From NCBI GenBank assembly GCA_964036195.1, contig OZ038452.1:13572704-13636703 (forward strand): a DNA stretch of 64,000 bases, read 5' to 3'. A model generated the notes under the pieces. It worked only from the letters and a program-made list of their open reading frames with translations, was not told the DNA's origin and ran no database searches. Below are positions 10,659-63,286 of the stretch, in pieces; the stretch's first letter is position 1; each line of letters begins with the position of its first letter. A program made the translations under genes and the position numbers. Source of the DNA: Sphaerolaimus hirsutus (taxonomy: Eukaryota; Nematoda; Chromadorea; Monhysterida; Sphaerolaimidae).

Positions 10659-11338
10659 TAGGGTTCAAACGGGATTGACTTTTCGGGATCGGGATTGGTT
10701 TTTTGAAGTTTCGGGATCGGGATCGGGATTGGCCTTTCGGGATAGGGATTGGCTTTTGAGATTTCGGGATCGGGATCGGGATTGACTTTTCGGGATCGGG
10801 ATTGGCGTTTTTTCGGGATCGGGATTTAGGGCTTAAAAAATTGGTTTTCAGGGTTTTTTCCTGACATTTCACAAAATGACCCAAAACACCAAAAACAATG
10901 GATGCCAGAAACGTTGGATTAAATTGGCATTCAAAACAATGCTATAGACTCATTAAGGCACTGAGCAATGGGTTGCCTGGCATTGTCATTCACACCACTG
11001 TCTACCATATATGCATGTGTATGAACCTAAAACTATGGTTATGGGCACGTTATGGGTTATGGGTAGTGGTGTCCATGCCCATGGAACATAGATATAGAGG
11101 GAGGTGTGGAAATGCGCGCTTGCGTGCAAAATTTTTGGAAACTGCATACAAAATGGTCCTTCAAAAGTGCCATTTCTGGCACCTTTTGTGGCTGTGAAAT
11201 TTTCCGGGATCGGGATTGGGGCATTTTTTTCGGGATCGGGATTGACTTATTCAAATCTCGGAATCGGGATCGGGATCGGGATTGAGGTGTCGGGATCGGG
11301 ATCGGGACCACAAAATCCCGAATCCCGTTTGAACCCTA
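10659..11338. mobile_element. GGGATC-array element, hAT-like
   Basis: Ends are TAGGGTTCAAACGGGATT and AATCCCGTTTGAACCCTA. Flanks are ACCATGAC and ATCATGAC (7 of 8 match). Arrays of CGGGATCGGGATTGG sit at both ends; the middle is unique and carries GCGCGCTTGCGTGCAAAATTTTT. 10010-10658 is AT-rich with element fragments. Confidence 0.75.
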
Positions 11339-11884
11339 ATCATGACGTCATCATAATAAAATTAATCCAGCAAAAAAAAAGAAAAAACATTTCGGGAAAA
11401 AACATTCCTCGTTTGTACGCGGACTCCACCTTTTCTTTTTTAGAAATATTGTTCTTTTTGTGAAAGTGCATACATAAGTATCCATCTCGCGCGTTTTAGA
11501 CCAAGACATAAATAATTTTGGGCGCATACTTTGCGGTCCGCCGATTATACCAAATTTTTTGTTAGCGACTTACAAAAAATCGGAGGTGTTGCGATTTTTT
11601 TTAAATTGGACTTTTTCACAATAAATCGCTAGCCAACCCTACCCGCAGGAGTCCAAATCAACAAGGTCTCTGCGAAACAGTAAATAGTGACTCACAAGTG
11701 AGCATCCAAAGTGACGGAGCCATCTGCATGCAGCCACGCGGCAAAGGATCCAGCGTCACCGCAAAAGGCACAGCAACAAAACGCAATGCCGTTCCGCAAG
11801 CTATCCAGTCTGCGAGTGATGGAACCGAATAAAGATAGACAACTAACTAGGGATGGAAAAAACGTCTTTTTGACAACCGTTTTT

Positions 11885-12755
11885 TTAATAAAGCATATTT
11901 CATAAAGTCAGTGAAATTAGAAACATGCTTAAAGTTTTTGACGAAGTAACAAATCCCCCCTTGGATAATTCCGCCCTCGAATAGTCCCCTCTTAAAAAAG
12001 TCTGACGACAAAATAACTTTCCGGGGGGATTATTCGAGTACATACGGTATCTTTCTTTGTTCATTTCGCATATTTGGTTTTTGCACTCACTAACAAGGTG
12101 GCACCAACGGTCAGATGTGTTCGACTTGTTATATAAATTTCGAATCTCAAAATTTAAGTAAAAACGTTTTTGGTGGCCAGCTAACAGTCCCACAACCACG
12201 CCAGTAAAATCTAACACAAATTTCTCAAAATGCTATGCGTAGTTGTTAAAACTTACCTATTTGCTTTTACTCAATAAATACGTATACTCGAGTACAGAGT
12301 AAATACGTTTCTTCCGAAAAAAGTTCATGTACTCGCTTTGACGTAAACTTTTTGACAGTACAGAAAACGTATTTCAGACGTTTTCGTATACTTTGAAAAA
12401 AGTTCGATAATTTTAAGCACCCTGATGTTATGTTACACGTAAAATAATAGAAAATATCACTGTAAGTACACAGTTCCCCCGCCAGTATATTATTTTGGCA
12501 GGCTTATTTGAAATATGACATTTTGGAGAACACGCCCGGTCGTGTTCGCACGACGCAGCACCCCGTCCATGTCGCTGCCATAACAGAGTGATGAATAAAG
12601 ACGATTGAAAAAACTTTATTACAAAAAAAAGGAATATTTTTCTTTACGCTTTTTTCGTACTTATTTGGGTCTTGGGGAAAGATTTGTTTGGGTGAAAAAC
12701 CATACATCGTTCCCCTGCATACTAGCAAACATAACGCAAACGGCGGCGCAGGTTA
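11885..12755. repeat. 0.87-kb duplicated block carrying a decayed ALDH1L1 exon 15 piece, copy 1
   Basis: Closely matches 21411-22084 joined to 22901-23095 in ALDH1L1 intron 14. It includes a copy of the acceptor and first half of exon 15 (minus strand GGCAGCGACATGGACGG at about 12560-12580), with codons for EFGLAS lost and the frame ruined. Here the site of the 22-kb insertion is empty (CGCAGCACCCCGTCC). 11339-11884 shows nothing recognisable. Confidence 0.75.
12529..12583 (-). pseudogene. ALDH1L1 exon 15 fragment outside the gene
   Basis: The minus strand keeps the exon-15 start ([10 protein letters not shown]) and a shifted piece of GVFSKDV. Internal deletion and altered downstream sequence make it non-functional. 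Confidence 0.65.
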
Positions 12756-13007
12756 TATTATAAACCCTTACCCTAATTTATAAACGCACCAAAACCAACC
12801 AATTGGTGGGCCGGTAAGGCAGCAAAAAGCAGTATTCATCACTGCAGCCACAGGCACGATTTGATAATAATACCGCCCTAGGAAGGCCGACAGCGACCTG
12901 CGAATAGCAATTTGCGCGTACATAGTCTGTAAATGCGGTTGTTGAAATGTCGAACCCTGCATCAACTGGGCGCAGGTTCTAGCTAGTAGGGTTGGGACGG
13001 GCCTGTG

Positions 13008-13396
13008 CCTCTGTGCATGTTTACCCGCTGTGCATGTCAGGAGTATTCAAGACTTTGAGCCTCCAGGGGGTTGGATAGATGGCTAATCGCTCCTCTGGAG
13101 GGATAGATAGCTAGAAAAAAAAATTTAGGGGGTTTGGGGGTTCATGGGGGTTCATTGCATAGGCTTTTTCATAATGAGGAAAAAAGGTAGAAAAATCGCT
13201 AAAAGTAGGTGAAAAATTACTAAAAATAGGTATATAAGCACAAATACTACAAGAAATAGCTGAAAATAGACAATAAAACACATGAACTAGTGATTTTGAA
13301 GGTGAAAATGTATAAAATGGTATGAAAATGAGCGATTTTGTGTGAAAATTAGGGTCTACATGCACAGCGGGTAAACATGCACAGAGAGCCTCAGTC
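13008..13396. mobile_element. TIR element, CTCTGTGCATGTTTACCCGC ends, copy 1
   Basis: Ends CTCTGTGCATGTTTACCCGC and its complement enclose a segment with TGGATAGATGGCTAATCGCTC and AAAATCGCTCATTTTCATAC. The inverse copy is at 24821-25193 in ALDH1L1 intron 11. Similarity continues a few bases outside (GGGCCTGTGC and GCCTCAGTCG), so these ends may be internal to a slightly longer unit. Confidence 0.7.
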
Positions 13397-13399
13397 GTT

Positions 13400-13960
13400 G
13401 GGACGACATGACTCTTCGATATCGATATTTTTATCTAAATTTGATATTCGATATCCATACGATATGGACCCTGGATATGAAATTATGATTTCGAATTTCG
13501 AATTTGAAATTTCGATATGAAATTATGCTCGATATTCGATATGTGGATATTTTCGTCTTGGAATAGCGACATATTTCAAACAACATTTTGTATTTCCATT
13601 GTGCCGCTAATTTTCACCGTGACTTCGTGTGAAAACTAAAATTTACTCAAATGCAAATTGACGAACACGGTTGAATGATTTAATTTAAATTAAATTTGAA
13701 TTTAAATTAATGAAAGTTAAAATTTGAAAAACCAAAACACATATAGCATACAATAAGAGTAGGCTGGATGTCGCCATGTCGCCATTTCAGTTTTGACATC
13801 AGTCACGGTGAAAACTAGTGTGTGTAGGGCCATTCGGTCACAAACATGGTTGATCATCTGTTTACCGATATGTAAATAGGACAGGTGATTAAAACAAGGT
13901 ATAAAGTATCAAAGTGGGTTCAAGACATGAAGAATCAAATTGTATCTGGCAAATAATTTA
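13400..13960. other. no gene seen; AT-rich
   Basis: Palindromic ATCGATATTC-type and TTTAAATTTAAATT-type simple sequence, plus a foldback of the CACTAGTTTTCAC family at about 13610-13830. Confidence 0.5.
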
Positions 13961-14464
13961 ATCTGATAAAAAATGGCTAAAGCCAACAAAAAGTGGACAC
14001 TGCACCTAACCATGTGTATGCTTTTGAATGCACAAAAGTAATATATCATATACCATGCCATTTTCTGATTGAGCTATCAAAAGATGTAAATATATCAAGG
14101 GAAATGTACACAAATGCTAATAATATAGGCTATCAACACAGCAAACTGCATCACAAGAAACAATTTCATCAAACTTTTGCATGGCAGCGTGAGCTGTGTC
14201 AAAGTGCTGCAAACATTAAAGATACAAAAAGCTCACGCTGCCATGCAAAAGTTTGGTGAAATTGTTTCTTGTGATGCAGTTTGCTGTGTTGATAGCCTAT
14301 ATTATTAGCATTTGTGTACATTTCCCTTGATATATTTACATCTTTTGATAGCTCAATCAGAAAATGGCATGGTATATGATATATTACTTTTGTGCATTCA
14401 AAAGCATACACATGGTTAGGTGCAGTGTCCACTTTTTGTTGGCTTTAGCCATTTTTTATCAGAT
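13961..14464. repeat. near-perfect palindrome, 235-bp arms, 35-bp loop
   Basis: Arm 13961-14195 is the near-exact inverse of 14231-14464 (outer ends ATCTGATAAAAAATGGC and its complement). An 88-codon frame appears on both strands because of the symmetry, so it is not evidence for a gene. Confidence 0.9.
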
Positions 14465-14589
14465 ATACTTCTTTTTGTGGGCCACAGGCCCAAAAGTTTA
14501 TAAGTTATTGCAAATCAAGCAAATGCCAAATGTGGCAGTGAGCAATACAATCTATAGTCAAGAAGAAGCCAAATACTAAGATTCAAAAG

Positions 14590-15790
14590 ATTTTCAACCT
14601 GACATTTAGAACCTGAAAGTTATCACTTGACATTTATGACTTGAAATTACCCACTTGACAATAACTTGACATAAACCACTTGACATTTATGACTGAATGG
14701 CATCACTTGATATTTATGACTTGACATGAACTGCTTGCCATTTTTTCACCTGATAGTTTTCACTTGACATAAACAACTTGACAGGTATCACCTGAAAATT
14801 GTTACTTGACATATTACTTGACATTTGACATGACATTTATCACTTGACATTAAACTTGACATTTCACTTGAAACTTATCACTTGACATTAAACTTGACAT
14901 TTGACATGACATTTATCACTTGACATTAAGCTTGACATTTAACTTGACATTTGACTTGACATTTGACTTGACATTTCACTTGAAATTTATTACTTGACAT
15001 TTCACTTGAAATTCATCACTTGGCATTTGACTTGACATTTCAATTGAAAGTTATCACTGTATATTCACCTTGACATTTATCACTTGACATTTGACTTGAC
15101 TTGACTTTAGACTTGACATTTATAACTTGACATTCAACTTGATATTTGATCACTTGACATTAAACTTTACATTTGACTTGACATTCCTCACTTGAAATTT
15201 GACTTGACATTTATCACTTGAAATTTGACTTGACATATGACTTGATATTTGACTTGACATTTATGAGTTGACATTAAACTTGACATTTCACTTGAAATTT
15301 GTCACTTGACATTTGACTTGAAATGTGTCACTTGACATTTGACATGACATTTGACATTACATTTCACTTGAAATTTATCACTTTACATTTGACTTGACAT
15401 TTGACATGACATTTATCATCTAACATTAAACTTGACATTTCAATTGAAATTTATCAGTTGACATTTGACTTGAAAGTTATCACTTGAAATTTGACTTGAT
15501 ACTTTATCACTTGATATTTTATAACTATCTATCACTTGACATTTATCAATTGACATTTCACTTGAAATTTATCACTTGACAATTATCACTTGACATTTCA
15601 CTTGAAATCTACAACTTGACATTTATCACTTGATATCTGACTTGATATTTTATCACTTAATATTTTATCACTAGACATCTATCACTTGACATTTATCACT
15701 TGACATTTGACTTGACATTTATAACTTGACATTTGACTTGACATCAACCACTAGACATTTATGACCTGATAGTAATCAGCATGCAAGGTC
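14590..15790. repeat. TTGACATT satellite, about 1.2 kb
   Basis: Degenerate array of (A/T)CACTTGACATTTAT and ACTTGACATTTG units, about 11-15 bp each, with many substitutions (GAAA for GACA, GATA for GACA). There are no open frames. 15791-16728 is AT-rich with no gene seen. Confidence 0.92.
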
Positions 15791-16728
15791 ACATGCTCAG
15801 TATCACATGAAGCAGTAGTTCAGGCATGTTTGCGCATTTTACACAAAATAAGCAAACTTGAATAACTTTTGTAAATCTGTACCAAAATTGCCAAAAATTG
15901 GCTCATTTGAAAGCTCTAGTCATGGCACACATCAACAAATTTTTTGTATTGCCCCATTTGTATTCAAATTTTAAATTTATTGAGGTTTGAAAATTTCAAA
16001 CAGATACCGTACCAAAGTGGGCGGAGCCTGTGAAAAAAAATCCCGAAAATAAGAAATGGCATCATATTCTCTTTCAAATGAGCCATCAACCATGAAAATC
16101 GGTCGTGTTTCAAGGAAGTTATTGCAGTTTGAAGATTTTCGGGAGAACAAGAACAACAACAACAACAAGAACACTACTTGAAAAAGAAAATGCGTAATAA
16201 CTTCCTCCGAACTCAACCGTTGGATCTGAAAATTTGCATGGTGGTATGTTTCGACACGGGCTTTTTAATGGTGCGATCGGTTCTGCACTAGCGCATTGCG
16301 TTCCGAAGTTATTGCGATTTTAAATTTGCGATTTCCGCATTTTGGTGTGTCTGACCATATTATGGGTGGGTCGCTTGCGCCCTCCCTCGGCAGCGAGGGA
16401 TGGCGCTGGCGCGCCCACCCGATTCATACTTGTAATCTAATTGCTTTTGCGAAACAGCAATGTGCATTTGTGTAATGTGCAAACATATGAGCATTTTCTG
16501 GTTCCAAATTTGATGTTTGGTGGTCATGCTTAGATCGTATTTCTTTGAAATACCCCGAGGTTTATTTTTTCAGAGTGCAAATTTTGACGGGGTAATTCAC
16601 TGTTTTTCACGTGCTTTGCATTACACATACCACAAACGGCAGTTATAGGCAATTCTCTTTACACACATTTCGGGCGAATGTATTTCGAGGTGGAGGGGTA
16701 TATTTTCACAAGTTCGCTCAGACCTGGG

Positions 16729-17011
16729 TAGTGATGGAAAAAGCGCCAGGACTTTGGCGCCAAGCGCCATGGCGCTTTTCCGAATTCCAGCGCCAAGCGC
16801 CAATGGCGCTATAGAAAATTGGCGCCAAGCGCCAGAACCGCCATGGCGCTTTTTGCTTTGGCGCTAGCGCCAAGCGCCAGCGACAGGAATTTTGTTCCTG
16901 GCGCCAGGCAAAAAGAGCGCCAAGCGCCATGGCGCTTTTCCGAACCTCAGCGCCAGGCGCCAATGGCACCACAGCAAAATGGCGCTAAGCCATGGCGCTT
17001 TTCCATCACTA
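16729..17011. mobile_element. GGCGCC-array element, TAGTGATGG ends
   Basis: Begins TAGTGATGGAAAAAGCGCC and ends GGCGCTTTTCCATCACTA. Flanks are GACCTGGG and GACGTGGG (7 of 8). The interior is a dense array of GGCGCCAAGCGCCATGGCGC. Confidence 0.75.
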
Positions 17012-19460: not shown

Positions 19461-19632
19461 AGGACAGTGGCGTAACCAGGACTTTTGAGCGGGGGGGGGG
19501 CGCCGCCCCCCCCCCCTAAAATTTGACCCCTATAGTAAGGGAATGGCGCTATGGCGCTGGCGCCATTCGGACGCACCACGCCATGGCGTCATTGACGTTG
19601 GCATTGGCGCCGACGGCCGCTGTATATGTATG

Positions 19633-20025
19633 TACCGTATTCACTCGAATAATTCCCCCAACTTGAATAATTCCCCCCCCCCCCCGGCCAGACGAGTGAG
19701 GAAAAAATAATTCCCCCATGTGAATAATTCCTCCCCTCGAATAATTTCCCCCTGCTAGACGAGTGAGCAAGCAAAATAGCAGTGCCTCGTTTGATTCATC
19801 GAACACAAATGCAGCACATTCGGTGTATAAGGATGCAAAGGAATGTGCACTACGAATGGAAATTGGACGTACATGTGTATGTTGTGTGACGGAAACATAC
19901 TTGAAAATTTTGAGGAAAAAATAATTCCCCCACTTGAATAATTCCCCCCCCCTTGAATAGTTCCCCCTCAAAAATGTCTGACGAAAACATAATTCCCCGG
20001 GGGAACTATTCGAGTAAATACGGTA
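19633..20025. mobile_element. TACCGTATTCACTCGAATAATTCC element
   Basis: Ends TACCGTATTCACTCGAATAATTCC and GGAACTATTCGAGTAAATACGGTA. The interior segment (GCCTCGTTTGATTCATC to GAATGTGCACTACG) is related to 35930-36000 in the similar element there. It is embedded in GGCGTAACCAGG-type element debris from 19463 to 20345. Confidence 0.65.
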
Positions 20026-20518
20026 TATAAATATTTACAGCACGGGGACAATTTTGAGCATAATATATTTGCACTGGATTTTGCGTTGTCGCGACCGGAG
20101 CCCTTAAAATATCTGTTATACGGGGTAAGAATGCGCGCTTGCGCGCAAAATTTTAGGAATCTGCCAAATAAATCGTATATAAAAGTCCATTTCCTGGCAT
20201 CTTTTATGTCTGGCCCGAGAAGGGGGGGGGGGGGGGGCGGCCGCCCCCCCGCTACGCCACTGGTAAAAAGGACATGTAAAAATTCGCGCTTGAGCGCATA
20301 CTTTCCGTAAAGTACACCCCCCACCCTGAATACGTCCACGGCACATATTTCTGGCTTATATTTGAGGGGAATTCCATCTTGAGGGGAGCTTCATCAGACA
20401 AATAGATGAGTAGCATTACATTTACAAAATAATTGACAAATCACATAAATAATTGGATATCTGTATGGTAAAAAACCATAGTGCAACAATACTGGGGTGT
20501 GGCAAGTGAGCGCTTGGC

Positions 20519-32419
<11,901 letters not shown>

Positions 32420-33308: not shown

Positions 33309-34117
33309 TGGTGATGGAATGGCGCCATGGCGCTAGGCGCCCTTTTCCTGTGGCGCCATTGGCGCCTGGCGCCCACTTTCTGAATGGCGCCATTGGCGCT
33401 TGGCACCCTATCCCGTGGCGCCCTGTCCAAAAAGGGCGCCAAAATGGCGCCAGCAGGGTATCAAGGTGAGTACAGTGTAAATGAGAAATTTAAATAAAAA
33501 ATAAAAAAGCGCGTGTGTGGATAATGGAATTTCCAGCAAAAAAATGGTGAACTGATTCAAGTGAACAAAAATCTTCCATCCAATGTTACATCAGACACGT
33601 CTGATGGATCGTCGAACTCACAAACTCGTAAATCAATGGAGACGAATCTTCGCAATTCTGTTTTTGTCGATCGTCAAGTACAATTTGCAATATTTGTAGT
33701 GAATGCTTGCTTAGTTGAATCACAATCTTCATTGTGTCTGCATTGAATTTCATGTGAGTATGATTTTGTGCATAAAATTTTGTTGCCTTTTTCGTTTTTG
33801 TTGAATACATCATGGAGAAAATGAAGGAACAAATTAAATGTGGCACTACCGTGCTGAATTGATATTGAGACTGAGAGCACATGTAGGTCATTTCATGTAA
33901 CTATCTATTCTGGCGCTCTATTTTCTAAATGGCGCCCTGGCGCCATTGGCGCTTGGCGCCCTCTTTCCGTGGCGCCTTTGGCGCCTGGCGCGCACTTTCT
34001 GAATGGCGCCATGGCGCCCTTGGCGCTTTGCGCCCTTTTCCCGTGGCGCCTGGTTTCCGAATGGCGCCATGGCGCCATTGGCGCTTGGCGCTTTTTTATG
34101 GCGCTTTTCCATCACTA
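33309..34117. mobile_element. GGCGCC-array element, copy with unique core
   Basis: Begins TGGTGATGGAATGGCGCC and ends GGCGCTTTTCCATCACTA, with imperfect flanks ATATGACG/ATAGGACA. The core (33480-33900) is homologous to 34800-35220 of the next element. 32420-33308 is the upstream region of ALDH1L1: AT-rich, no TATA box I would defend. Confidence 0.7.
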
Positions 34118-34570: not shown

Positions 34571-35491
34571 TAGTGATGGAATGGCGCCATGGCGCTGGCG
34601 CCATTTGAGGGCGCCAAAGGGCGCCGCGCCATGGCGCCATTGGCGCTTGGCGCCCTTTTCCTGTGGCGCCCTTGGCGCCTGGCGCCCACTTTCTGAAAGG
34701 CGCCATGGCGCCAGTGGCGCTCGGCGCCCTTTTTCCGTGGCGCCATTGGCGCCTGGCGCCCTGCCCTAGAAGGGCGCCAAAATGGCGCCAGCAGGGTTTC
34801 AAGGTGAGCGCTGCGTTAAAAAAAAAGCGTGTCTGTGGATATCGAAATTCGCCGGAAAGTGGTGCCAGTGGATGGAAATCTTGCATTCAACGGTTCATCA
34901 GACACGCCTGAAGAATCAGAAACTTAGAATGATGAACCATCGAACTTGCAACCTCGTAAATCAATGGCTACAAATCGTCGTAATTTCGTTTTTGTCCACT
35001 TCAAAAAAAGATCCATTGGAAAATCTATTTGAAGTTGATGCATTGTTTGGTCAAATGACAATTTTTATCGTGTTTGAATCGAATGTCATGTGTGTTCATT
35101 ATTTTGTGCAAAAATGTTGTTTCTAATCACGTTTTTGTTGATTTTATCCTGGAGAACGTGAAAAAAGAAGTGATTGTGTACACTACAGTCTTGAATAAAC
35201 ATTTTTAGCACACACAACAGGGCATTGTACATGTACACACCTTTTTATTCTGGCGCCCTTGGCGCCTGGCGCCCAAAATTTCAAATGGCGCCATGGCGCC
35301 CTTGGCGCTTGGCGCCCTCTTTCCGTGGCGCCCTTGGCGCCTGGCGCCCACTTTCCGAATGGCGCCATGGCGCCCTTGGCGCCTGGCGCCCTTTTTCTGT
35401 GGCGCCCTTGGCGCTTGGCGCCAATGTTTTGAATGGCGCCATGGCGCCATTGGCGCTTGGCGCCCTTTTTTCTGGCGCTTTTCCATCACTA
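34571..35491. mobile_element. GGCGCC-array element with exact 8-bp duplication
   Basis: TAGTGATGGAATGGCGCC to GGCGCTTTTCCATCACTA, flanked by GAGGTAAC on both sides (34563-34570, 35492-35499). It shares its 0.4-kb core (CATCAGACACG(C/T)CTGA, CTCGTAAATCAATGG) with 33309-34117. The core may descend from an autonomous parent but has no long open frame. Confidence 0.85.
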
Positions 35492-36180: not shown

Positions 36181-36188
36181 GATTGTGG

Positions 36189-37017
36189 CCAACGATGGGT
36201 AAGTTCTCCAAAAAAAAACACTTTCTGTGTTTTGAGTTTTTCAAAAATGAATACCTGTGTTTTGAGTTTTTTTATCAAAAAAAACTTGAGTAACTCTGTT
36301 TTTATTTCTGTGTTTTTTGTTAAAACTCGAGTTTTTTGAGTTTTTTTCTAAAAAACTCAAGTTTTTGTCCAAAAAACTCGAGTTTTCCCCCAAAAAATTC
36401 TGATTTACAGCATTTTGATGTGGAAACAGCGGTTTTCTTATAAAATATTGGTTTTGCACATGTTTTAACCCCACATAACATATGTGTATTCATTCAAGTG
36501 TTGAAAAAGTCCATAAAAATGTCCTCAATGAGGACATCCACCCACATCACAACACCAGCATCAACAAAATGCTCACAAACGACAATTTACGCAGTACTCC
36601 AAAATTTTTCAATGGATGTGCACTGTATGGAAGACTACAGAATTGATTTGAACTACAACTAGATTTAAACATGTCCACCAGGAGATGTGCATGCCATCTT
36701 TTATTTATTTTTTGTTCCATCATAAAATATGAATACATTATGTACATATTCACATGCATTACATGCTTATCTTATCTTGTTAAACTGAATTCATGTGCGT
36801 TCTGAAAATGTGTTCAACCACTTCGCTGAAAAAAAACTCAAAAACTCAAAAAACTTTTCTGTGTTTCCGTGTTTCTGTGTTTCTGTGTTCTCCAAAAAAA
36901 AACTCATTTGAGTTTTGAGTTTTTAAAAATTTGTGAGTTTCCGTGTTTCTGTGTAAAACAACAACACAGAAACTCAATGAGTTTCTGTGTTCAATTTCTG
37001 TGTTTTTTCCATCGTTG
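36189..37017. mobile_element. CTCGAGTTTTTTGAG-array element, CAACGATGG ends
   Basis: CCAACGATGGG at the left and TTTTCCATCGTT at the right, with GATTGTGG on both sides as an 8-bp duplication. The interior is built of TGTGTTTTGAGTTTTT and GTTTCTGTG repeats around about 350 bp of other DNA. Confidence 0.65.
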
Positions 37018-37024
37018 ATTGTGG

Positions 37025-38456: not shown

Positions 38457-41400
38457 CTGCGAAATTAGCAATTGATCGTATGAAATGATTTGTTCATCCC
38501 CACATCACACAAAACATTTTCCGTTTTTAAAATGTCAAATCTCTTTCATCATTTCTCCCGTCTTCTTGCTCACATGCTCAAAATGCACCCTAACCCACCT
38601 GACTACTGCCACTTGGCTGTCTGCCAACTGCGCTCATCATACTGACTTTAGAGCCAGCTGTGGACCTCTTGCTGCAGCGCAATATGGGCACGGTGTTGTG
38701 CGGCGTGATGCGCACAACGCTGGGTGCGAGCAGACATGGTTCGCCATCTACTTGGGCTGGGATCGCCTTGCCCGTGGTCAGGCGCGCTGTGCGACACTGG
38801 GCCAGGGCGATGCCTTTGCCACCTAGCTGAAGGGCCGCCTGCGGGTGTGGGTGCGATGCATAATACTCGATCCCGGTGTCAATGATAATTTCAATGTGAT
38901 AAAAGTTACTCAATGGGCAACATAAGGAGTAAATATCTTTACAGAAGAGATGATGACTGGGGGAAGAAATTTTCCTATAAAGCTGTACAGAGCTCAGTCC
39001 CTGTGAAATTCCTCGTAAAATGTCAAATGTCATGCACAGTGTCAAAAGTCATGTAAAATGTCCTGTAAAATGTCAACAGTTTGCCATTTTACAGGGCACT
39101 TTACATGACCATTCATATTTTGCAAAACATTTGGTGTCTGGGAATCAGAGTTGTTGAAACGTATTTACGTCTACTCGATAAATACGTATACTCGCGTACT
39201 GCGTAAATACGTTTACGTTTCCTCCTGAAAAAACACACCGGTACTCACATACTCGCGTACTTTTTGAAAATACGCGAGTACAGAAAACGTATTTAAAGGG
39301 GACAGAAAATGACAAACATAGGACATTTTCCTAAGAAATACTTATCAGGAGAGAAAAACACAAACTTTGATGTATTTCAGAGTAAAAATTGGAGAAAAAA
39401 CACACCGATTTTTGTGTTATTTTCATTTCATTTCATCAACAATACCACGGGTGGCTACGCGAGTCATGGCAGTATCCTCAATACACAAACAAAGAAGAAA
39501 AATAATTCAAACATACGACGGGTATTATACGATATTATATAAGGACAGGGCGGTGAACAACATCTAAATGTTAGTAACATGAGCACCAATTTTATATTAT
39601 TGTAATAGTAGCATGAGAAAGCGATACCAAGGCCTTGGAATTTTTCAATTACTAATAGTATTGAAGACCTAACAAACAGTAGGTAAGAGTATTGAATATT
39701 TAAATGGCGAGCGGGTCAAATAAGCGAATATACGTATAAGAGAGTACTGCTGCGAGGAACTATGAGGGAGTAGACATGAGTATATGTTATATAGTTAGTA
39801 TATAGTTATGTTTGTGAAAAAAATGCTCACTTTTACGTTTTCTGTGAGAAAAATATCCATTTTCACATTTTCCCTGGAAAAAATACTCATTTTTACGTTT
39901 TCTCTGGAAAAAAAGTATTTTACTCTTGTTTTACGCAGTGTAAAAGTAAAAATAAAATACTTTGTGTTTTCTGTACGCATGTGTGAGTAAAATAAAAATA
40001 TTTTACGTTTACATTTAAAAACGTTCAGTACTTTTAACAACTCTGCTGGGAATGGAAGCGGTATTCTCAGTAAATACAACATACCAGCATTTTTGTGGTA
40101 AAGCCAATAACTTCAATCTTGCCATCATTCACAGCTGCCTTTCCCATACCTGCCCTGGTAGCACTGTCAGTTGGCCACGGCTGCACACCACCAGCGTAGT
40201 ATGGGATATTGTGGAATAAGATACAGTGTAGTTTGTAATCTTTGATCTTGTCTGTTACATCCAGGCCGTCACACTGCAGGGTGGGTGGTTATCTGGTATT
40301 TAGATTATTTTAGCTGATTTGAAAATAGATCGAAAAAATTTTATTTGGGCACACAAACTAGTTTTCATGACTCCAATTTGAAAACTTAATTTGAAACTGA
40401 ATGGCAATGCATCGCTGTACAGTTTTCAAAACATGTAAATTTGCATTGTTAGTTTTCAAAAACTGCAATCATATGCGTATTTTTGTTTTGATAATTTGAT
40501 AAAGCTAGGTAGATGATTTTTTCTCAAACACTGTTCTCCTCACTTACCTCCAGGTAGATGTGCTCGCTCAAATTCCTCCACGTTCTCTTGAACAAATCAA
40601 CTGTACCCAATCCTCCATAAACCATTCGATTTTTGAGTCTACTATTGAACATCTCGGGGTTGGCACTGCGACTCTGGTGAAACTGCAGTGCGACATGCGC
40701 GTCAGCGCCAATGCTAAAGTAGTTATTCATGACAGCCAGCGGTAATTTGTCGACCACACTTGGCCCATCTTCATTGTCAGACCATTCAACGCCAATATTG
40801 GGCTGGACAGTGATGGCCCACCTGTTCATGGTGTCTGTGATGCAGCCAGAGTGCACTCTGGTCAGAATTGAGCTCAGGGGGTCATCTGAGAAGGCGCCAC
40901 CCCAACCTGCGGGTGGAGGGTGGAGTCAACTGAATGAGCTGGTCCGGAGAACAATGTGAACATTTTGTATGATACCAATTCAAGAAACTGTTATGCCCCG
41001 TGAATCAGTGAGAGATCTTATTAAAAACCATTAACAATGAACGGAATATTTTTGCGTGAGAATTTGTAGCCAAGAATTACCCATCTCTCACAAAATTCAT
41101 ACGTACCGAATGTGCGCGCCAGATCATTGCCAGTGCCCAGAGGAAGTGCTGCTAGTGGTGGGTACAACTCAGTCCCACCGCTCTGAAAAGTAATTGCCCT
41201 TTCTGTCTAACTTTATGTAAATAAATTCTGCACCATTGTGGCTATGCACGTAACCTCACTGCAGGTCAACTGAAAAATCTCTTTTTAACACGGTTTTTAC
41301 TTCACGGAAAAACATTTATTTGTCTGTTATTAGTAGTGAAACTATACATACCTTCCCGCTAACTGAAGCGTGTTTAAGGCATATTGCAAACAGTTGACTC

Positions 41401-45225: not shown

Positions 45226-45403
45226 TCCCAAGCCCTGTAAAGTGTAAAGTAAAGTGTCAAATGTAAAGTCAAATGCAAAGTTAAATGTCAATTGTCATGC
45301 AACATTCAGTAATAAAATCTTTTCTTTTTTGTTTTGATTGACACTTGACTTTGCATTTGACTTTACATTTGACACTTTACTTTACACTTTACAGGGCTTG
45401 GGA
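45226..45403. mobile_element. foldback element, TCCCAAGCCCTGTAAAG ends
   Basis: Near-perfect 178-bp inverted repeat of TAAAGTGTCAAATGTAAAG sequence. Related pieces (CATGTAAAATGTC, TTTACAGGGC) occur at 30955-31035, 39010-39115 and 55600-55760. The rest of 44640-45225 is low-complexity TTTCCAGCAAAATT. Confidence 0.7.
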
Positions 45404-46455: not shown

Positions 46456-46903
46456 TAACGATGGAAAAAAAAAGATTCGAAAATTCGAATTTTTTCGGAC
46501 TTCTCGAATTTTTGAGCACACGGTGAAAAAAATACATAAAAATCGATTTTTTTCAAAAGATTCGAAAAGACTTTAAATTTTTTTAGGTGATTCAAGGCAT
46601 TGATATGTATTCTTAAGTTCAACGTTCTAAATCAATTGACAATTGACTTGCGGTGTGTCTGAGCTGTAATAAAAACGTAAAACGTTGACTTCCAGGTTCA
46701 ATAAAGTTTTGAATGCAATTTTTTCAAAAAATTTGAAAACTATTGAAAAAAATTCGAAAACTACCCAAAAAATTCGAAAATTCTAAAACTAAATCCGAAA
46801 ATTCGAAAACTTTTTCTGGGAAAAATTCGAAAATTCGAAAAGTCATTTCATAAAAAATACTTAAAAATTTAAATACTTTTTTCTGGAGGGTTTGCCATCG
46901 TTA
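46456..46903. mobile_element. TTCGAAAA-array element nested in the 1.5-kb element
   Basis: Begins TAACGATGGAAAAA and ends GCCATCGTTA. GTGTATAG flanks both sides (46448-46455, 46904-46911). The related copy at 49.8 kb has the intact empty site TAGTGTATAGAGAAC. Confidence 0.85.
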
Positions 46904-46931
46904 GTGTATAGAGAACGTAAATAACAAAGGT

Positions 46932-51908: not shown

Positions 51909-52038
51909 TTGTATTCGTGATATCTGTCATATTACGTACTTTCATTTTCGTGTGACTCGATCGAACATATCTTATGTGCAGTCACCTAAACCAATCAACC
52001 AAATTCAAAAATTCATTCCTTGTGCTAGCATATGCAAA

Positions 52039-52488
52039 CAAGGACGTAGCCAGGGGGGGGGGCGGGCCGCAATCCCTTCCCGAGCCGGACCAAAAAATGT
52101 GCCAGAAATGGCACTTCCAGAAGACAATTTTGTCGACAGTTGTAAAAAATTTTGCGCGCAAGCGCGCATTTTCCCTTCACGTAACATATATTTTCGGCTA
52201 ATCAGTTTCCCAGCCTAAAAGCCAGTGAAATGGACCCAATTCCTGCCCATGTGGCTGTACTTGCCTATAAAATACAGGCATATACTGCTGTTTTGGCGCC
52301 AATGCCAACGCCAGTGGCGCCATGACGCTGGCGCCAGTCGTAGGCGCCACGCCATGGCGCCACTGGCGTTGGCATTCCCCTACTACAGGTTAAATTTTAG
52401 GGGGGGGGGGGCGCCGTCCCCCCCGTTCGCCGGGCTCCGTATACAATCCGCCCCCCCCCGCTCAAAAATTCTGGCTACTACGTCCCTG
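52039..52488. mobile_element. CAAGGACG-family element with exact 8-bp duplication
   Basis: CAAGGACGTAGCCAGG to CTACGTCCCTG, flanked by TATGCAAA on both sides (52031-52038, 52489-52496). It contains GCGCGCAAGCGCGC, a GGCGCC palindrome cluster and poly-G/C runs. The sister is 5223-5655. Confidence 0.8.
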
Positions 52489-52652
52489 TATGCAAATGAA
52501 GTATTTGTTTGAACAATTCCCCCGTGTAATATGAGTGCAAAAAATAATTCCCCCCTTAAGTCATATAATCATATTCATATGTCATGTCCAATTAATTCAG
52601 ATTAATGTCCAATAAAAATGGCATGCTATTGTAATCATAAAGCATATTTTGT

Positions 52653-54120: not shown

Positions 54121-54619
54121 ATAATATACAGCTAAAGTGCACCCACATACTTGTGCAGTGTGAAACACCACTGCCAATGTGTTAGCCTGCTCTGATATCC
54201 TTATTTAAGCACTTTTCCATACTACACTTCACTTTAAGTCACAAATGTTCGACAAAAGGCGATATCCGTAATAAGTCGACATAAAACAGATATTTTTGAC
54301 AGAAATAACCACTTATAATGCTATCCCATGACACAACAGCCATTCTACGGCTATATGTAACATTACAAAGTACTGTCACCAGTCTGATTTACCTGTATAT
54401 GTTGACTCATGTCCATATCTGGGAGCTTTTAAAAAAACGGTCTTATTTTAAAATAAAACAGTTTTTGAAAAAAAGGTTGTTTTTTTAAAACCCTGTCGTT
54501 GGAAAAAACCTTTCTGGGCCATCCCTTATTTACAGTCATATACAGCGACGTGAATAGAACTTTCACATTTCCTGCACATTTTTACAGGATTTAAGGCTGC
54601 CGTGACCAGTCAGGCAAAA

Positions 54620-55440
54620 ATACCTGTTGCGTGAAGGAAAAATGCGCGCTTGCGCGCAAAGTTTTTTCAAACTGGCGACTTAATCGCTTCACGGAAGTGC
54701 CATTCCTGGCATATTTTTTGTCCGGCCCGGGAAGGGGGTGGGGGCGGCCGCCCCCCCCCCCCCGCCTGCGTCCTTGCGTTATGGCACAGTAAATCTGAAA
54801 ACTGCGGTAGGCGGTAGGGTGTCAAATTTCCGTTTTCCGTTTCCGTTTTCCGCAGGCAAATTTTTTCCGTTTTCCGTTCCGTTTTCCGGCTGCTGAATTT
54901 TTTTTCCTGATTTCCGTTCCGTTTTCCGGCCACTTTTTTTCCGTTTCCGCTTTTCCGGCTCATTTTCCGTTTTCCGGCTAAATTTTCAGTTTTTCCGCCT
55001 TTTTTCCATTTTCTGCCTCAATTTCCAGATTTTTCTGCCATTTCCGTTTTCCGCCTCAATTGTTCATTCTTACACCTCATTTTACCTTTTTCTGGCTCAA
55101 CTTTCTGTTTTCTGTTCCAGCAAAACTGGTAAGCATTCATGCTGATTGTCAATTATGTAACTTTTTTCTGTTTCCAGCAAAATTTCTGCAAATTTTTTCC
55201 ACTTCCAGCAAAATTTCAGCAAATTTTATCGATTTTCCGGCAAAATGTTAGCAAATTTTTCCGTTTCCGTGCAAATTTCCATTTGCCGTTTACGTTTTTC
55301 TGACCCCTTTTTACGTTTCCCGGCTGCAGAATTTTTTTTTCCGTTTCCGTTTCCGTTTTCCGCCAAGTGGAAATTTTTTTTCCGTTTTCCGTAAAAAAAA
55401 ATTTTTGACACGGTACGGTACAGTAAATTCTGCCAGCCCA
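54620..55440. repeat. GCGCGC hairpin element remnant plus TTTTCCGTTTCCG array
   Basis: 54640-54780 matches the CAAGGACG-type interior. 54820-55420 is an array of CCGTTTTCCGTTTCCG related to 26449-27355, starting at GTAGGGTGTCAAA. The unannotated DNA of 54121-54619 holds the GCTATCCCATG repeat. Confidence 0.65.
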
Positions 55441-55994
55441 GTGGCACGATATTCAAGCAACCACAACCCATCATGAATCAAGTGTTATAAGTGATAAGTA
55501 TTGGTGAAAAACTCATCCCTTAATAGTTTGCGTCATTTTACTTGAGATTAGGATTCAAACGATACTGGCTTTTCTATACCGATACCAGGACCAGGTGCCA
55601 CACGCAGACCATGTAAAATTACCTGTCAAATGTCATGCTATCAAGTTATGTAAAATTTCATGAAAAATTTAAAACATCCAGTAAAAAAAATAAAGATTAC
55701 ACCTTACATGACTCTTGACACTTTGCATGACACTTAACATTTTATAAGGCATTTTGCGGCTAACTTTTTAACTTTTGCGGCATATAAGGCTATTTTGGCT
55801 ACCATTTTTGGCTACCTATGTATGTGCTTATACAGTTTTTAGTCATTTTTCAGCTATTTTTAGCGATTTTTTGCTTATTCCTTCTACAGACAAACCTACC
55901 TTCGAATTTTGATGCTCAGCCATAGTTTACAATGGGCAACGCATGAATTATGGCAGGTCCGCGGTAAAAACTCGCATCTTCCAAATGAACCAAC

Positions 55995-58055: not shown

Positions 58056-58336
58056 GATGGATGCAGACTCGACACTGCAATCCAAAACACTTGGTGGGAA
58101 GGAAATGTTTACATGATAAAAATGACAAATCAAGGTGCAAAGTGAAATGGACAAAAATAAAACTGAAAAGTGGACTTATTTTGATGTAACCAGTCGATAG
58201 ATGGCATGCGAGGATAGACTATTACAGGCTACCGAAAGAAACATCGCATGAAGGGATTTCACTACTTTCATTTCATTATCGGAAGCAGTAAATAAAAAGA
58301 AACATGAAAAAAATGCCGAGGTGCATCCAGCAGTAG

Positions 58337-58342
58337 TTTATT
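58337..58342 (-). promoter_or_regulatory. candidate poly(A) signal for UQCRFS1
   Basis: AATAAA on the minus strand lies about 204 nt past the Rieske stop codon. Position and motif fit, but no transcript evidence is available. Confidence 0.35.
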
Positions 58343-58545
58343 ACAATTGACAAATCACAAATGCAAAATCCCTCATAGTCGGTCTACTTCACTCCCACCA
58401 AAAACCACGCAAATCAAATGTGCCAGCTTTCTGACAACTTGAGCTTAGCCACCACATTACATCTGTTCCTAAACAATATAAATTCTGAACTTTACACGCA
58501 CACGCTATGGATTGCGATTGCACAATCTACGGGGTATCACTTCAA

Positions 58546-61500
58546 TCAGTCAGTTTCGCCAATGACTATGGTGCCCTCGTCTTTGAATCGATAGGGTGGC
58601 ACCTCCAAGTTCAGCGGGGCGGGGCCCTTGCGAATGCGCCCAGCCGTGTCGTAGTGAGACCCGTGGCAGGGGCAGTAATAGCCGCCGAAGTCACCCATGC
58701 CAGCTGCAAGGGGAAGTAGACTTTAAACGGGATCCAATCTCGAATCCCGAACATTTTCGGAATTCAGCCATCCCGATCCAGACGACACAACCCCGAAAAT
58801 TTGAAATGCTACTTTCGATTAGGGATGGAAAATAGCGCTTTTTTTTAAAAAGCGCTTTTAAAAAACAGGCCTTTTTCAAAAAAATGTCAAGATACCTTAA
58901 AAGCTCCCAAATATGTTTCTGGTTCTGGTTCTGTGTCTACAGGTATATCACACGAGTGGCAGTACTTGTGAAGATATATAGCCATAGAATGGCCGTGTAA
59001 TCATGGGATAGCATTATAGGTGCTGATTTCTGTCAAAAGAATCTAATTTTATGTCGACTCGTTATGTATATCGCCGTTTTTGAATGTTTCTTGACTGCAA
59101 GTGAAGTTAGGCATGGAATAGTGCTTAAATACGGCTATAAGACAAGGCTAATACATGACTAGGGTTCAAACGGGATCCCGATCCCGGATCCCGTGAAATT
59201 CCGGGATTTAGCGATCCCGATCCTGAAACCCCAATTCCGATCCCGATCCCGAAATCCAAAAATACCAATCCCGATCCCGATCCCGTAAACTTTCAAACCC
59301 CGATCCCGAGAATCTCCCAAGTCCGGGATCCCGATCCCGGAAAAACATAGTGAAAATTATAAAAAGTGAAAAAATGACATTTTTGTGTGCAAAAATGTGA
59401 ACACAAACCCCCAGTGTCAATTTTATGTCACTTTTCTGGCATCCAACAGTGTTTTGAGACCTTTATGAACAACTGTGAATGCCAGAACAGTGACGAAAAT
59501 CTCTATCCCTAGACCCCAATCCCGATCCCGAAAAAATGCCAATCCCGATCCCGTGACCCCAATCCCGGCCAATCCCGATCCCGAAACCCCAATGCCGATC
59601 CCAATCCCGAAATCTCAAAATACCAATCCCGATCCCGAAACCCCAATGCCGATCCCGAAATCTCAAAAAGTGAATCCCGATCCCGATCCCGAAAAGTCAA
59701 TCCCGTTTGAACCCTATACATGACAGTGATGTTTCAGACTGTAGAAAAGTGTGTGGAAGCACATTGGCTGGATATTATTTACTACACTGACATATCACAA
59801 ATTACTATTACATTATACCATGCAGGAATAGAAACAATGCAACTAAAATGCACAAAACCAATGGAAACAACCACCAATGGCAATTTGCATTTGAAATTAC
59901 GCGCTTGCGCGCAAAACTTGCAAAATACCTAGTGCATAAGTGCTAAAAAATTTGCCTGCGCTTTTTTATATAAAAAAGCGCTGGCCTTCCCTACTCTCGA
60001 TCAAGAAAATTTCCAAACCATACTGCCAATCGATCCCCATAAAATTTCTCCAACCCCGAACACGGGAAGAACCATTTCTGGCGGCACATGCTGTGGCGCC
60101 TCTGGAAACACAAACTACAAAAGTGCCAACCCCTGACAAACCAATTGGCACGCAGCCAAGATGCGTACACACGCCGAGAGACACCACCCAGCTGGGGTTC
60201 TTTACTCTGTCGTCATCATGCTGCGGGTCGCGCAGCGAGTTCAAATCCACGGAGCGCTCCTTGTCGATTTCGCTCTGCGGCCGATGTCGCACGAACACCG
60301 GCTTGCCGCGCCAAGAAAACGTTTTGGTAATGCCTGTAATAAAAATTCTGCAACATTCAGAGGTCTAAGTCTAGAATGGGGGGTGATAGAGGTAGAGGGG
60401 GTTACCCCAACCCAAACGCTCCAGCTATCTATCTATCCCGACGCAATTTTTTTGGCGAATATCATCTGAAACCCCACCCTCAAATCGGCCATCCATCTGG
60501 AACGATTGTCGAGAACTTTCCTCAACATCGCTAACTTTTTACCCATTTTCACTTTCAAAATTACTAGTTCACGTGCTTTACTGCCTATTTTCAGCTATTG
60601 GTGTGCCTGTATTTTTATTTTTACCAATTTTTTTTCCATTTCTTGCTTGAACCTTGAAAACCCTATAAAATGAACCCCGCGAACCCCTTTTTTCAGCTAT
60701 CTATCCCTCAGGAGGAGCGATATATACGAAACCTCTCATAGGTCCAAATTTACAAGACCGCTGGCAACGTTCGTTCACTTGAACGTCAAATCGACGCAAT
60801 CGTCTAAGGAACCTTCATGAATGTCGGAGATGTTGACTTCAGTGTTGGCCAAGGCGACTTGGTCCATGGCCATGGACTTGTACTCGACCATGGTGCGCAC
60901 TGCGGCCTTGCTCACGTACAGGCCGAACACGCCAGCGGCGCCGTACGACAGGTAGGTGAACGCGCGTCTCTCGTCCTCGGACTCGCGCGCCGGCTTCGTG
61001 GGGTCCTTAGTGCTGTCGCGTCTGCGCCGGACAGTTCAACGCATTTGGCTACGCAATGCGGCTCAGTCGGCTAACTTTGTAAGGCCGCGTTTACACGGAT
61101 TTGTTCTGTGCGGCTTCGCTCACGAGGCTGCATAGAACAAATTCACCGGCAACGGGAAAAATAAGTTATCTAGTGCTCATTATTGCGTAATCTATAAAAC
61201 TTGGTAATGGCACCATGCAGTGAGTGAGGTTGATCAAATCATTATTGATCGAGGCGTCCGATCTATTTAATAATTAATTGTCATCCCCCAAAAAAGGGAA
61301 AAACCACGTATGACAAATTGGCAGCGTGCCATAAAGAAGCCTGCCAAAAATTATTTCCCAATCGCTATAAATAAAATAGCTATATAACCATGTATAAAGA
61401 CGAAAATAGTGATTATGAAGGTGAGAGTTGGCAAAATGTGGCTAATTTTAGCGATTTTGAGTACTTTGAGCGCTTTCACACTCACTCGTACGATACATAA

Positions 61501-62193
61501 CTGTTAACTTGGACGGCTGTCAATTCGTCATAAATAGCCCGATCCCAAAAAAACGCTGCCTTAAAAACACACCTGTACGTTTCCATATTCGGGAAATAGA
61601 CATCCGTGTGCACCGTGCGTACTTGCATGCCGGCTGGAAAAACAACAAAAATGGAATAGCATAAACTGAATTTGAAACAAACATGCAACAAAACCTACAG
61701 TTGACTCCTTTGGTGAATCTGAGGCCGGGCGCGACAAGCCCCGCCTTCCACTCGCCGTGCTTGGCCATGGAACTGTGCGTCAGGGGCTCCACGCTGGTAC
61801 TCAGGTGCTCCTTGCGCTTTTTGGACAGTGGCAAAGGCGTGTAGCCCGACACCGCCGGCGACACGGCCGCCACCTGGGGTCAGATCCAATTTGAACATGA
61901 CAGGCTCGTGACCGACAAGTGAGTAAGTGTGTGAAATTGTACATGGATGTGTAGCACTGATGTGCACAATTTCAGTGCTTACTCAGATCTAACTTCAGTG
62001 ATTACTCGCGTGTCGGGCGTCTGACGTGCGTTCAAATTTGCGCCCTGGGATCAGATCCAATGAGAACGAAGGATGTACACACGCATAAGGCGCCCGACAC
62101 GCGATTAAGCGCACGAAATGTGGCTAGATTATGCGCTAAACGCACCACTTTGGTGAATGGGCGACCAGGCGTCGTCCGGAACAGCGATGCCAT
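58546..62193 (-). CDS. UQCRFS1: Rieske iron-sulfur subunit of cytochrome bc1, complete, 6 exons
   Basis: This is the 2Fe-2S subunit of respiratory complex III in the inner mitochondrial membrane; it passes electrons from ubiquinol to cytochrome c1. Exons on the minus strand are 62193-62083, 61873-61699, 61633-61573, 61021-60813, 60333-60142 and 58703-58546. The sum is 906 nt, or 301 residues (human 274). The start is an ACCATGG context giving [22 protein letters not shown], rich in Arg/Lys and hydroxyl residues as expected of a mitochondrial presequence. [13 protein letters not shown] marks the mature N-terminus, and residues about 136-158 form the membrane anchor. Cluster ligands are Cys241 and His243 in CTHLGC and Cys260 and His263 in CPCHGSH, with the disulfide partners Cys246 and Cys262. 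All junctions are in phase. Intron 5 carries a nested transposon pair. Confidence 0.96.
58820..59993. mobile_element. TAGGGATGG element in UQCRFS1 intron 5
   Basis: Begins TAGGGATGGAAAATAGCGC and ends GCGCTGGCCTTCCCTA. Flanks CTTTCGAT and CTCTCGAT agree at 7 of 8 bases. It carries the GCTATCCCATGATT repeat and a GCGCGCAA hairpin, and is interrupted by 59160-59716. Confidence 0.78.
59160..59716. mobile_element. GGGATC-array element nested in the intron-5 element
   Basis: TAGGGTTCAAACGGGATCCC to TCCCGTTTGAACCCTA with TACATGAC repeated exactly at both sides (59152-59159, 59717-59724). Arrays of GATCCCGATCCCG surround a 150-bp core. Confidence 0.88.
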
Positions 62194-63169
62194 GGTGTCC
62201 AAGCAGAAACAGAAGCACCACAGCCAAATCAGATCATTTGATGGGACGACTCCAAAGTGAGCCAATAATTTTATTTCTTTTTTGCGTGCAGATTGCTAGC
62301 GGGAAATATACACATCTCTTCTCTTTTTTCCCAAGTCAGTCGTGTAAAACGATATGCGTTTTCCGGAAAACTGACATAAAAGGCGGAGCTAAGTGCGACA
62401 AGTGACTGCCGAACGTTCTGCGTGCATTATTTAACACAGACGTTGTGAAACTGTGTGAAAAGCGCTATTTACAATAACACAGTTTCTCTCATGCCACTAC
62501 CTCTATCGAATGATTAGAAATGGGAAAAAAACGTTATTTAGAGCTCACAAATATGATTTTGAGGTATTAGATATTTATCTGACAAGTACTTTGTGATGTA
62601 AATATAGCCATAGCTGTGGGGCCATGGGATAGCATTGTGAGTGATGACTTTACATAGCTGCCGAAAATATACATTTTTATGTAGACTCGTTACATAATTA
62701 TATCACCTTTTGTCGAAGGTTTGTGACTTCAAGTAAAGTTCGGCCTGGAATAGTGCTTTAATAAGGTATAAGAGAAGCATAGTTGTTCAAACGTATTTAC
62801 TTTTATACGATAAATACGTAAACATATTTACTTGAGTACAGAGTAAATACGTTTACCTACATTTCCTCCGAAAAAAAGTTCTTGTACTCGCATTTATGTA
62901 TACTTTTTGAGAGTACTCGTGTACAGAAAACGCATTTCTGATAGGTGTTGAAGTAGGTTTTTTCAAGGTATGGAAGGGATAAATGGGGACAAATAGAGAA
63001 AAATAGCCAAAAAATGGGTGTATGAGCTTCATAGATCATTTATAGCCCAAAAAAACTGAAAATAGTCGAAATTGAGAGTGAAAATGGTGACACGTGAAGC
63101 CTGACAACGAAATCTGAGTTGACACAGACCACTTGACGCACGTGTGTCAACTAGTGTGTGGGCCGCCAC
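62194..63169. other. upstream region of UQCRFS1; repeats, no gene seen
   Basis: 62194-62480 is mostly unique and should contain the Rieske promoter; no clear motif is visible. 62520-62790 is the GCTATCCCATG-family repeat and 62785-62945 the AAACGTATTTAC family. Confidence 0.4.
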
Positions 63170-63286
63170 TAGTGATGGAAAAGCGTCAGAAAAAGGGCGC
63201 CATGGCGCCATTCGGAAGGTGGGTTCCAAGCGCCAAGGGCGCCACAGAAAAAGGGCGCCAAGCGCCATGGCGCCATTCCATCACTA
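63170..63286. mobile_element. short GGCGCC-array element
   Basis: TAGTGATGGAAAAGCG to GCGCCATTCCATCACTA, 117 bp. Flanks GCCGCCAC/GCCGTCAC agree at 7 of 8. Confidence 0.75.

Follow-up and report, generated by a model that had tools for sequence, protein, structure and literature searches.

Hexamer arrays at both ends of short hAT-like elements in the genome of the nematode Sphaerolaimus hirsutus

We analysed a window of 64 kb from Sphaerolaimus hirsutus (assembly GCA_964036195.1, contig OZ038452.1, positions 13,572,704 to 13,636,703 of the forward strand) that carries a series of hAT-like elements, bounded by terminal inverted repeats (TIRs) and 8-bp target-site duplications (TSDs), many of which hold arrays of one short word at both ends. 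Coordinates below are positions in this window; the assembly searched comprises 348 Mb, and loci sampled from it carry L-numbers. The elements lie in animal-like DNA in which minus-strand exons can be read that presumably belong to an ALDH1L1-like gene, a diacylglycerol-kinase-like gene and others (by reading only).

A first scan for TIRs and TSDs paired inverted ends starting with YA (at least 9 of 11 positions matching) and compared their flanking 8-mers, with 40 displaced-flank controls. It yielded 9 pairs with exact 8-bp flanks (control mean 0.85, maximum 5) and 22 pairs with at most one mismatch (control mean 3.2, maximum 9), of which 15 were retained (9 exact, 6 one-mismatch) and 7 were discarded by eye: three pairs in the array at 14.6-15.8 kb, and those at 4619, 32772, 39418 and 45310, the ends of which are AT-rich or of low complexity. 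A second scan contributed 5223-5655 and 52039-52488 (exact) and 28668-29309 (one mismatch, from candidate ends); its overall count (31 pairs; control mean 9.0, maximum 28) is not significant because the satellite at 14.6-15.8 kb raises the observed and control numbers alike, and the statistics were therefore taken from the first scan. Both scans together gave 18 accepted elements with TIRs and an 8-bp duplication, 11 exact and 7 with one mismatch (Table 1). The YA ends were imposed by the scan; nevertheless, ends of 16-18 bp recur thousands of times in the genome. Exact ends numbered 11,202 for the family-A TIR, 5,476 for the family-D end TAGTGATGGAAAAGCGCC, 3,241 for TAGGGTTCAAACGATAT and 1,185 for TAGGGTTGGGACGATAT, with 0 in each of the reversed-pattern controls. 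Within the window, at up to 3 mismatches, TAGGGTTCAAACGGGA has 13 matches (0.5 expected) and TAGTGATGGAAAAGCGCC has 7 (0.06 expected), whereas the pattern TAGGGTG(N)CAA occurs 7 times against 5.8 expected. Of the TIR starts in a preliminary description of this DNA, the TAGGGTG(N)CAA pattern as formulated here is therefore no better than chance. Matches of the exact 16-bp TIR in IMG/VR (25 contigs, a single TIR each, at most 4 CGGGATC per stretch) were taken as chance.

Table 1. Elements and repeat features of the window (TSD values are matching positions out of 8)
Position	Strand	Feature	Observations
2975..3079	.	Short family-A copy	TAGGGTTCAAAC ends; two CGGGAC sites; TSD not clear; flanks by eye
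5223..5655	.	hAT-like element	Ends CAAGGACG/CATGGACG; TSD CCTACATA 8/8
6085..6781	.	hAT-like element TAGGGTTGG	TSD TCAACGGC 8/8; ACGTTT sites confined to the two ends
7269..8937	.	Element CAGGGGTCTCC	TSD ACGCAATG 8/8; CGCACA-type repeats within
9053..10294	.	Element CAGGGGTTT	TSD 7/8; holds TACCGTACCG array pair (9176-9313, 9872-10002)
in 9053..10294		TACCGTACCG array pair	Behind TAGGGTGGCA end (left end by eye); partner TIR not seen
10659..11338	.	Family A1	TAGGGTTCAAACGGGA ends; CGGGAT arrays at both ends; TSD 7/8
11878..12754	+	Paralogous empty site of the 22085 element	Matches the joined flanks at 788/895 aligned positions
14600..15760	.	Free satellite-like array	TTGACATTT-type unit, unrelated to element motifs
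16729..17011	.	Family D	TAGTGATGG ends; GGCGC-type array throughout; TSD 7/8
20731..20995	.	Degenerate family-A copy	TSD not clear
22085..22900	.	Family A2	TIR of A1; GGGACC/GGTCCC arrays at both ends; TSD GCAGCACC 8/8; empty site known
26449..27355	.	Family B	Ends TAGGGTGCCAA/TAGGGTGTCAA; CGGAAA arrays at both ends; TSD 7/8; other repeat nested mid-element
28668..29309	.	Element CATTGGCG/CAGTGGCG	TSD 7/8
31370..31764	.	Element CAGGGGTCTCC	TSD 7/8; no hexamer array
31810..32147	.	Element CATAGGGG	TSD GCCTCACC 8/8; no CG hexamer array
33309..34117	.	Family D	GGCGC arrays at both ends; TSD not clear; middle shares 269/394 positions (68%) with the middle of 34571
34571..35491	.	Family D	GGCGC arrays at both ends; TSD GAGGTAAC 8/8
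36190..37017	.	Family F	CAACGATGG ends; AAACTC arrays at both ends; TSD ATTGTGGC 8/8
39146..40045	.	Family H	CAGAGTTGTT ends; ACGTA sites 7 left/2 middle/3 right third; TSD CTGGGAAT 8/8
46456..46903	.	Family E	TAACGATGG ends; TTCGAA sites at both ends; TSD GTGTATAG 8/8
52039..52488	.	Element CAAGGACG/CAGGGACG	TSD TATGCAAA 8/8; GGCGCC cluster one-sided
54818..55418	.	Decayed family-B copy	Two CGGAAA arrays; left TIR by eye; TSD not found
59160..59716	.	Family A1	CGGGAT arrays at both ends; 180-bp core; TSD TACATGAC 8/8
63170..63286	.	Family D, 117 bp	TIR and GGCGC array only; TSD 7/8

In the long copies of the window the arrays form the outer part of each end, mostly 100-240 bp deep (extremes 42 and 314), around a unique middle with a longest word-free gap of 185-573 bp; short copies (100-283 bp) consist of TIR and array throughout. 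The motifs given in the preliminary description as satellite interiors are present, but they are subterminal in the long copies and interior only in the short ones. The middle third was free of own-word sites in 8 of the 14 window elements tested; the other six comprise 16729 and 63170 (short, arrays throughout), 2975 and 20731 (small or degenerate), and 59160 and 39146 (two middle sites each). Among 23 genomic elements of at least 600 bp, a count that omits three nested or multiplied ones, all but 2 of the 793 CGGGA sites (791) are found no more than 250 bp from an end, where 529 would be expected if they were uniformly spread. Locus L069 appears to hold one family-A element inside the array of another (233-1138 and 368-819). 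The words of the window are of two kinds: i) CGG words (CGGGAT, CGGGAC, CGGAAA, CGGTAC); and ii) CG-centred palindromes (GGCGCC, TTCGAA, AACGTT, and CTCGAG within the AAACTC array, the latter by eye). CGGGAT, GGTCCC and CGGAAA mostly have the same orientation at both ends of an element, and the inner TIR bases match the array word in families A and D. All window clusters of CGGGATC, GGTCCC, CGGAAA, GGCGCC and TACCGTAC (at least four sites) lie inside TIR-bounded or truncated/decayed elements, unlike independent microsatellites. Arrays are not universal, since 31370-31764 and 31810-32147 have none and the GGCGCC cluster of 52039-52488 is one-sided.

Direct evidence of insertion comes from a duplicated segment: 11878-12754 and the region around 21200-23100 are 88% identical and hold an empty and a filled site. 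When 22085-22900 and one copy of GCAGCACC are removed, the joined flanks align with 11878-12754 over 895 positions (788 identical, 88%) with an exact junction, and 22085-22900 is thereby a proven insertion. Beyond the window, we collected 44 family-A elements: i) 8 by similarity to the end of 22085, that element included; ii) 15, unselected, from the first 30 TIR matches on contig C1, which also gave four loci without a partner in range and one ATATCG-type element, all kept outside the sample; and iii) 21 from 20 stretches picked as plus/minus pairs. The TSD was exact in 37 of the 44 and had one mismatch in 4 more; by subset, it was exact in all 8 similarity-derived elements, exact in 18 of the 21 pair-picked ones (one mismatch in the other 3), and exact in 11 of the 15 unselected ones, with one mismatch in 1 and two to five in 3. 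Of the first 30 family-D loci, 17 had exact TSDs (L111 and L112 being the two ends of one element), 2 had one mismatch, 8 had more and 3 had no partner end. Partner ends in both samples were picked for the best TSD, which biases these counts toward exact duplications; even so, most copies carry them, also in the unselected subset. The opposite order of events, i.e. TIR-like sequence inserted into pre-existing arrays or paired by chance, is contradicted by the empty site, the TSD counts and the thousands of exact genomic ends, the sampled ones having the same layout, and we give it practically no credence. The 44 elements (100-1357 bp, with TIRs and TSDs and thousands of exact ends in the genome) have the properties of miniature inverted-repeat transposable elements; their size excludes a full transposase in nearly all of them.

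The arrays behind a given TIR need not share one word. The preliminary description had assigned a different repeat to each element, and several words do occur, but GGTCCC, which is GGGACC, is one base away from GGGATC and both stand behind the same 16-bp TIR. The base that follows CGGGA is T 25 times and C once in 10659, T 30 times and C never in 59160, and C 34 times and T never in 22085. Counting T and C only, the 44 sampled elements fall into 25 T-type and 19 C-type with no mixed one (lowest purity 0.88). ATATCG words stand behind the family-A outer TIR in L063, and ATATCG arrays behind another TIR, TAGGGTTGG(G/A)ACGATAT, in L140, L141 and L145. A first comparison method found only local matches of 29-31 bp between the middles of 10659, 59160 and 22085.

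A search with PF05699 (C-terminal hAT dimerisation region) gave 28 genomic matches, 18 of which were covered by the 17 stretches examined (10 were left out). Downstream of the transposase match, 16 of these 17 stretches hold a correctly oriented end TIR of family B, H, A or E; five of these ends have one mismatch (L122, L123, L125 and L129 among them), the family of L123 being backed by a CGGAAA array. With the same thresholds, such an end was found in 12 of 60 control strand-windows beside family-D loci, which at 1,490 bp are somewhat shorter than the transposase stretches (1.5-2.5 kb). The matching CG word was enriched in 12 of the 16, namely in every one of the 7 family-B stretches (CGGAAA) and of the 3 with ATATCG, and in L131 (CGAAAA) and L122 (ACGTAA). 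We followed the 5' side of four transposase elements, and three of them are closed by both TIRs and a TSD: a family-B element (1,228 bp, TSD 8/8, CGGAAA sites at 13-197 and 996-1199), an ATATCG element of a family-A subfamily (1,389 bp, TSD 7/8, sites at 12-155 and 1222-1360) and a family-E element (1,145 bp, TSD 8/8, TTCGAA sites at 20-147 and 995-1076). The family-H transposase element is linked by its 3' end only, its 5' end not being found in 4.2 kb. PF05699 was matched in all four (E 7.4e-8 to 6.8e-18; the three closed elements 6.8e-18, 7.4e-8 and 1.5e-9); the closed elements show the C-terminal part only and are therefore deletion derivatives. Identity between transposase C-termini averages 73.6% among members of one TIR family (33 pairs, 44-100) and 35.2% across families (103 pairs, 19-57), with overlapping ranges and with L133 assigned by similarity and L129 by its one-mismatch TIR.

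Several tandem-repeat-bearing or hAT systems offer a comparison, as far as the cited passages describe them. Like maize Ac/Ds, the elements have an 8-bp TSD, a short TIR, CG hexamers at the ends and many non-autonomous derivatives with unrelated middles; in Ac/Ds the transposase binds multiple copies of a hexamer with CG, AAACGG, that lie in the outermost 200 bp at either end (PMC3260210). They are not Ac/Ds proper: the TIRs of the 18 window elements differ from the 11-bp (C/T)AGGGATGAAA, and here there are tandem runs, 40 or more sites in some elements and several unit types per outer TIR. In the Anopheles hAT element Herves, transposase binding depends critically on a subterminal CG/AATTCAT motif that occurs several times at both ends, and this motif suffices for it; the hexamer runs seen here are not part of that description (PMC3143072). 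Hermes has 17 and 14 short subterminal repeats that are bound by the BED domain, and about 220 bp per end are needed in cells; its repeats are 4-bp AAG(T/C) and interspersed, in contrast to the tandem runs here (PMC10368747). The two kinds of window words agree with the preferences reported for DNA-binding domains of the CGGBP/hAT-19 type, which favour CGG or GCGC (some AT-rich sequence), their motifs matching the subterminal regions of cognate hAT elements (PMC8097297); no protein of that type was found in the present analysis. The claim that no standard class has this plan thus does not hold, given the multiple short transposase-binding repeats of Ac/Ds, Hermes and Herves (PMC3260210, PMC10368747, PMC3143072). 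Compared with known hAT elements, the present arrays stand out by their tandem form, their site numbers and the wholesale switching of words. The literature searches made brought up no account of hAT elements that combine tandem hexamer arrays with polymorphism in array length, although this does not prove that none exists. Two other systems were set aside: microsatellite-associated elements of pineapple, which according to the portion consulted insert into TA microsatellites, a different phenomenon (PMC8449440), and coral CMITEs, described there as TTAA elements that can form tandem arrays and are not hAT (PMC2872659).

Because of the TSDs, the paired end arrays and the matching ends at hAT transposase C-termini, we read these sequences as hAT elements with subterminal repeats on an overgrown Ac/Ds-Hermes-Herves plan. 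It is very probable that they form a guild of hAT DNA transposons, mostly short and non-autonomous, in which paired end arrays serve as putative transposase-binding subterminal repeats and turn over in length, with no free satellites of the two words searched for. In this reading each element has a TIR of about 10-16 bp and an 8-bp duplication, and inside the TIRs two arrays of one short word, which in most cases contains CG, enclose a unique middle. Judged by position, pairing, motif type and the known hAT elements, the arrays are most likely subterminal transposase-binding repeats. A separate hAT transposase probably mobilised each lineage; shared ends tie four families to one, and for the rest this is an extrapolation. 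In family A, an entire array can consist of a variant word (CGGGAT, CGGGAC or ATATCG) behind the same outer TIR, and the arrays spread by transposition, as parts of the elements.

A number of observations weigh against this picture. No enriched CG word was found in L121, L125 and L130, that of L129 lies only in a separate neighbouring element, and L133 has no family TIR. The upstream open reading frame of the family-H element gave no Pfam match to a transposase domain (best E 0.23, to an unrelated family). Across 23 stretches, a TIR of D, A1/A2, F or the AACGTT family was the own end of no transposase; in L132 and L135 the B end is closely followed by family-D ends. CGGGAT/C arrays are missing from six relatives of the ATATCG transposase (from 53 matches): L140, L141 and L145 have ATATCG arrays, L142 has ATATCG words and none of the listed TIRs, and two have neither. 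PF02892 (BED finger) has 8 genomic matches, none of them at the hAT loci, where the closed elements show the C-terminal part only; 7 of the 8 lie in one region of contig C1 apart from these loci (C1:7466186-7680097). Hermes retains about 70% activity when its putative left-end sites are mutated, and many sites may therefore be dispensable (PMC10368747, in the portion consulted). Finally, the array-bearing window elements 2975, 20731 and 33309 have no clear TSD.

The idea that the arrays are ordinary microsatellites, arisen or captured in elements with no role in transposition, fits their run lengths of 1-5 hexamers in the sampled loci and the one-hexamer differences described below. It does not account for arrays that are paired at both ends, matched by the inner TIR in families A and D, confined to the outer 250 bp or so, made of one unit per element and recurrent beside transposase remnants, nor for the near absence elsewhere of long pure runs of the two words searched for, and we judge it very unlikely.

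Since the word is arranged in tandem runs, its copies are gained and lost in a microsatellite-like manner and by block duplication, as seen in elements that have one core and different arrays. Such growth within a family, which the preliminary description had proposed, was indeed observed: 14 copies built on a core of 179 or 180 bp, which agrees with that of the reference L073 at 162-177 of 179 aligned positions, carry 9 to 24 CGGGA sites at each end and measure 421-627 bp, a range from which L082 (core 99/141), L042 (core 132 bp) and the multiplied L044 were omitted. In 13 near-identical pairs (at most 6 core differences; members recur between pairs, which are thus not independent), 19 of the 26 array lengths differ, in 16 of these 19 cases by a multiple of 6; between L068 and L074, whose cores are identical, one run differs by one hexamer. 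L044 has a single TIR pair with an exact TSD, and between its TIRs core and arrays stand three times in tandem (unit 398 bp, two units identical at 396 of 398 positions), as might be expected from unequal exchange between left and right arrays running in the same direction.

The preliminary description went further, in that transposition of expanding binding repeats would plant the seeds of new satellites. The expansion within elements is real, L044 suggests that an element can start a satellite-like tandem, and in Drosophila virilis the end repeats of Tetris are reported to build satellite arrays, although Tetris, which shares terminal repeats containing internal tandem repeats, is a foldback element with a unit of about 220 bp and longer, kilobase satellite-like arrays (PMC4079207, in the part consulted). 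Against this, ten exact CGGGAT units occur at one locus in 348 Mb, where five overlapping matches make up 14 units, 8 bp behind a 13-bp TIR match and with no second element end within the 3-kb stretch, and ten exact GGGACC units occur nowhere in the assembly. These ten-unit searches covered CGGGAT and GGGACC, and not GGCGCC, CGGAAA, TTCGAA or ATATCG. An exact 29-mer of the core occurs at 2,014 genomic places; the first 100 listed represent 97 loci, 2 of which are tandem (three copies at 398 bp, two at 202 bp). Free-standing tandem satellites of CGGGAT, GGGACC and one core were thus not found in the assembled sequence, unassembled heterochromatin being outside the search. The sole long free array of the window, 1.1 kb at 14600-15760, has a CG-less ACTTGACATTT-type unit unrelated to the element words. 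We therefore regard the seeding of satellites as unlikely, and the data are a first negative for the idea that such arrays routinely turn into satellites.

Array length may be under selection. A more far-reaching possibility, which we consider conceivable but rather doubtful, is that non-autonomous copies compete for scarce transposase, with longer arrays winning and slippage supplying the variation, and that lineages divide once an entire array has changed to a word one base away (CGGGAT to CGGGAC) to which a transposase of changed specificity corresponds. If so, outer TIR and array word would behave as separate modules (three words occur behind one outer TIR, and one word behind two) and the genome would be a ready comparative test of splitting transposase specificity. 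Subterminal repeats in known hAT elements are short and scattered, as far as the reports consulted go, whereas here they are countable tandem runs; with many copies on the same core, the growth, homogenisation and word switching of putative binding-site arrays become measurable, and array change can be compared with the matching transposase lineages in the same genome.

Some further features of the window were noted. CATGAC forms the 3' part of the duplicated sites of 10659, 26449 and 59160, which belong to two families, and perhaps reflects a target preference. A decayed ATATCG-type stretch lies at 13388-13560 behind a GTTGGGACGA-like end. The TTGACATTT satellite adjoins an inverted repeat at 13951-14474 (245-bp arms, 98% complementary, 34-bp loop), and short AAATGTCA-type repeats occur elsewhere, at 39015-39080, 45236-45393 and 55699-55744.

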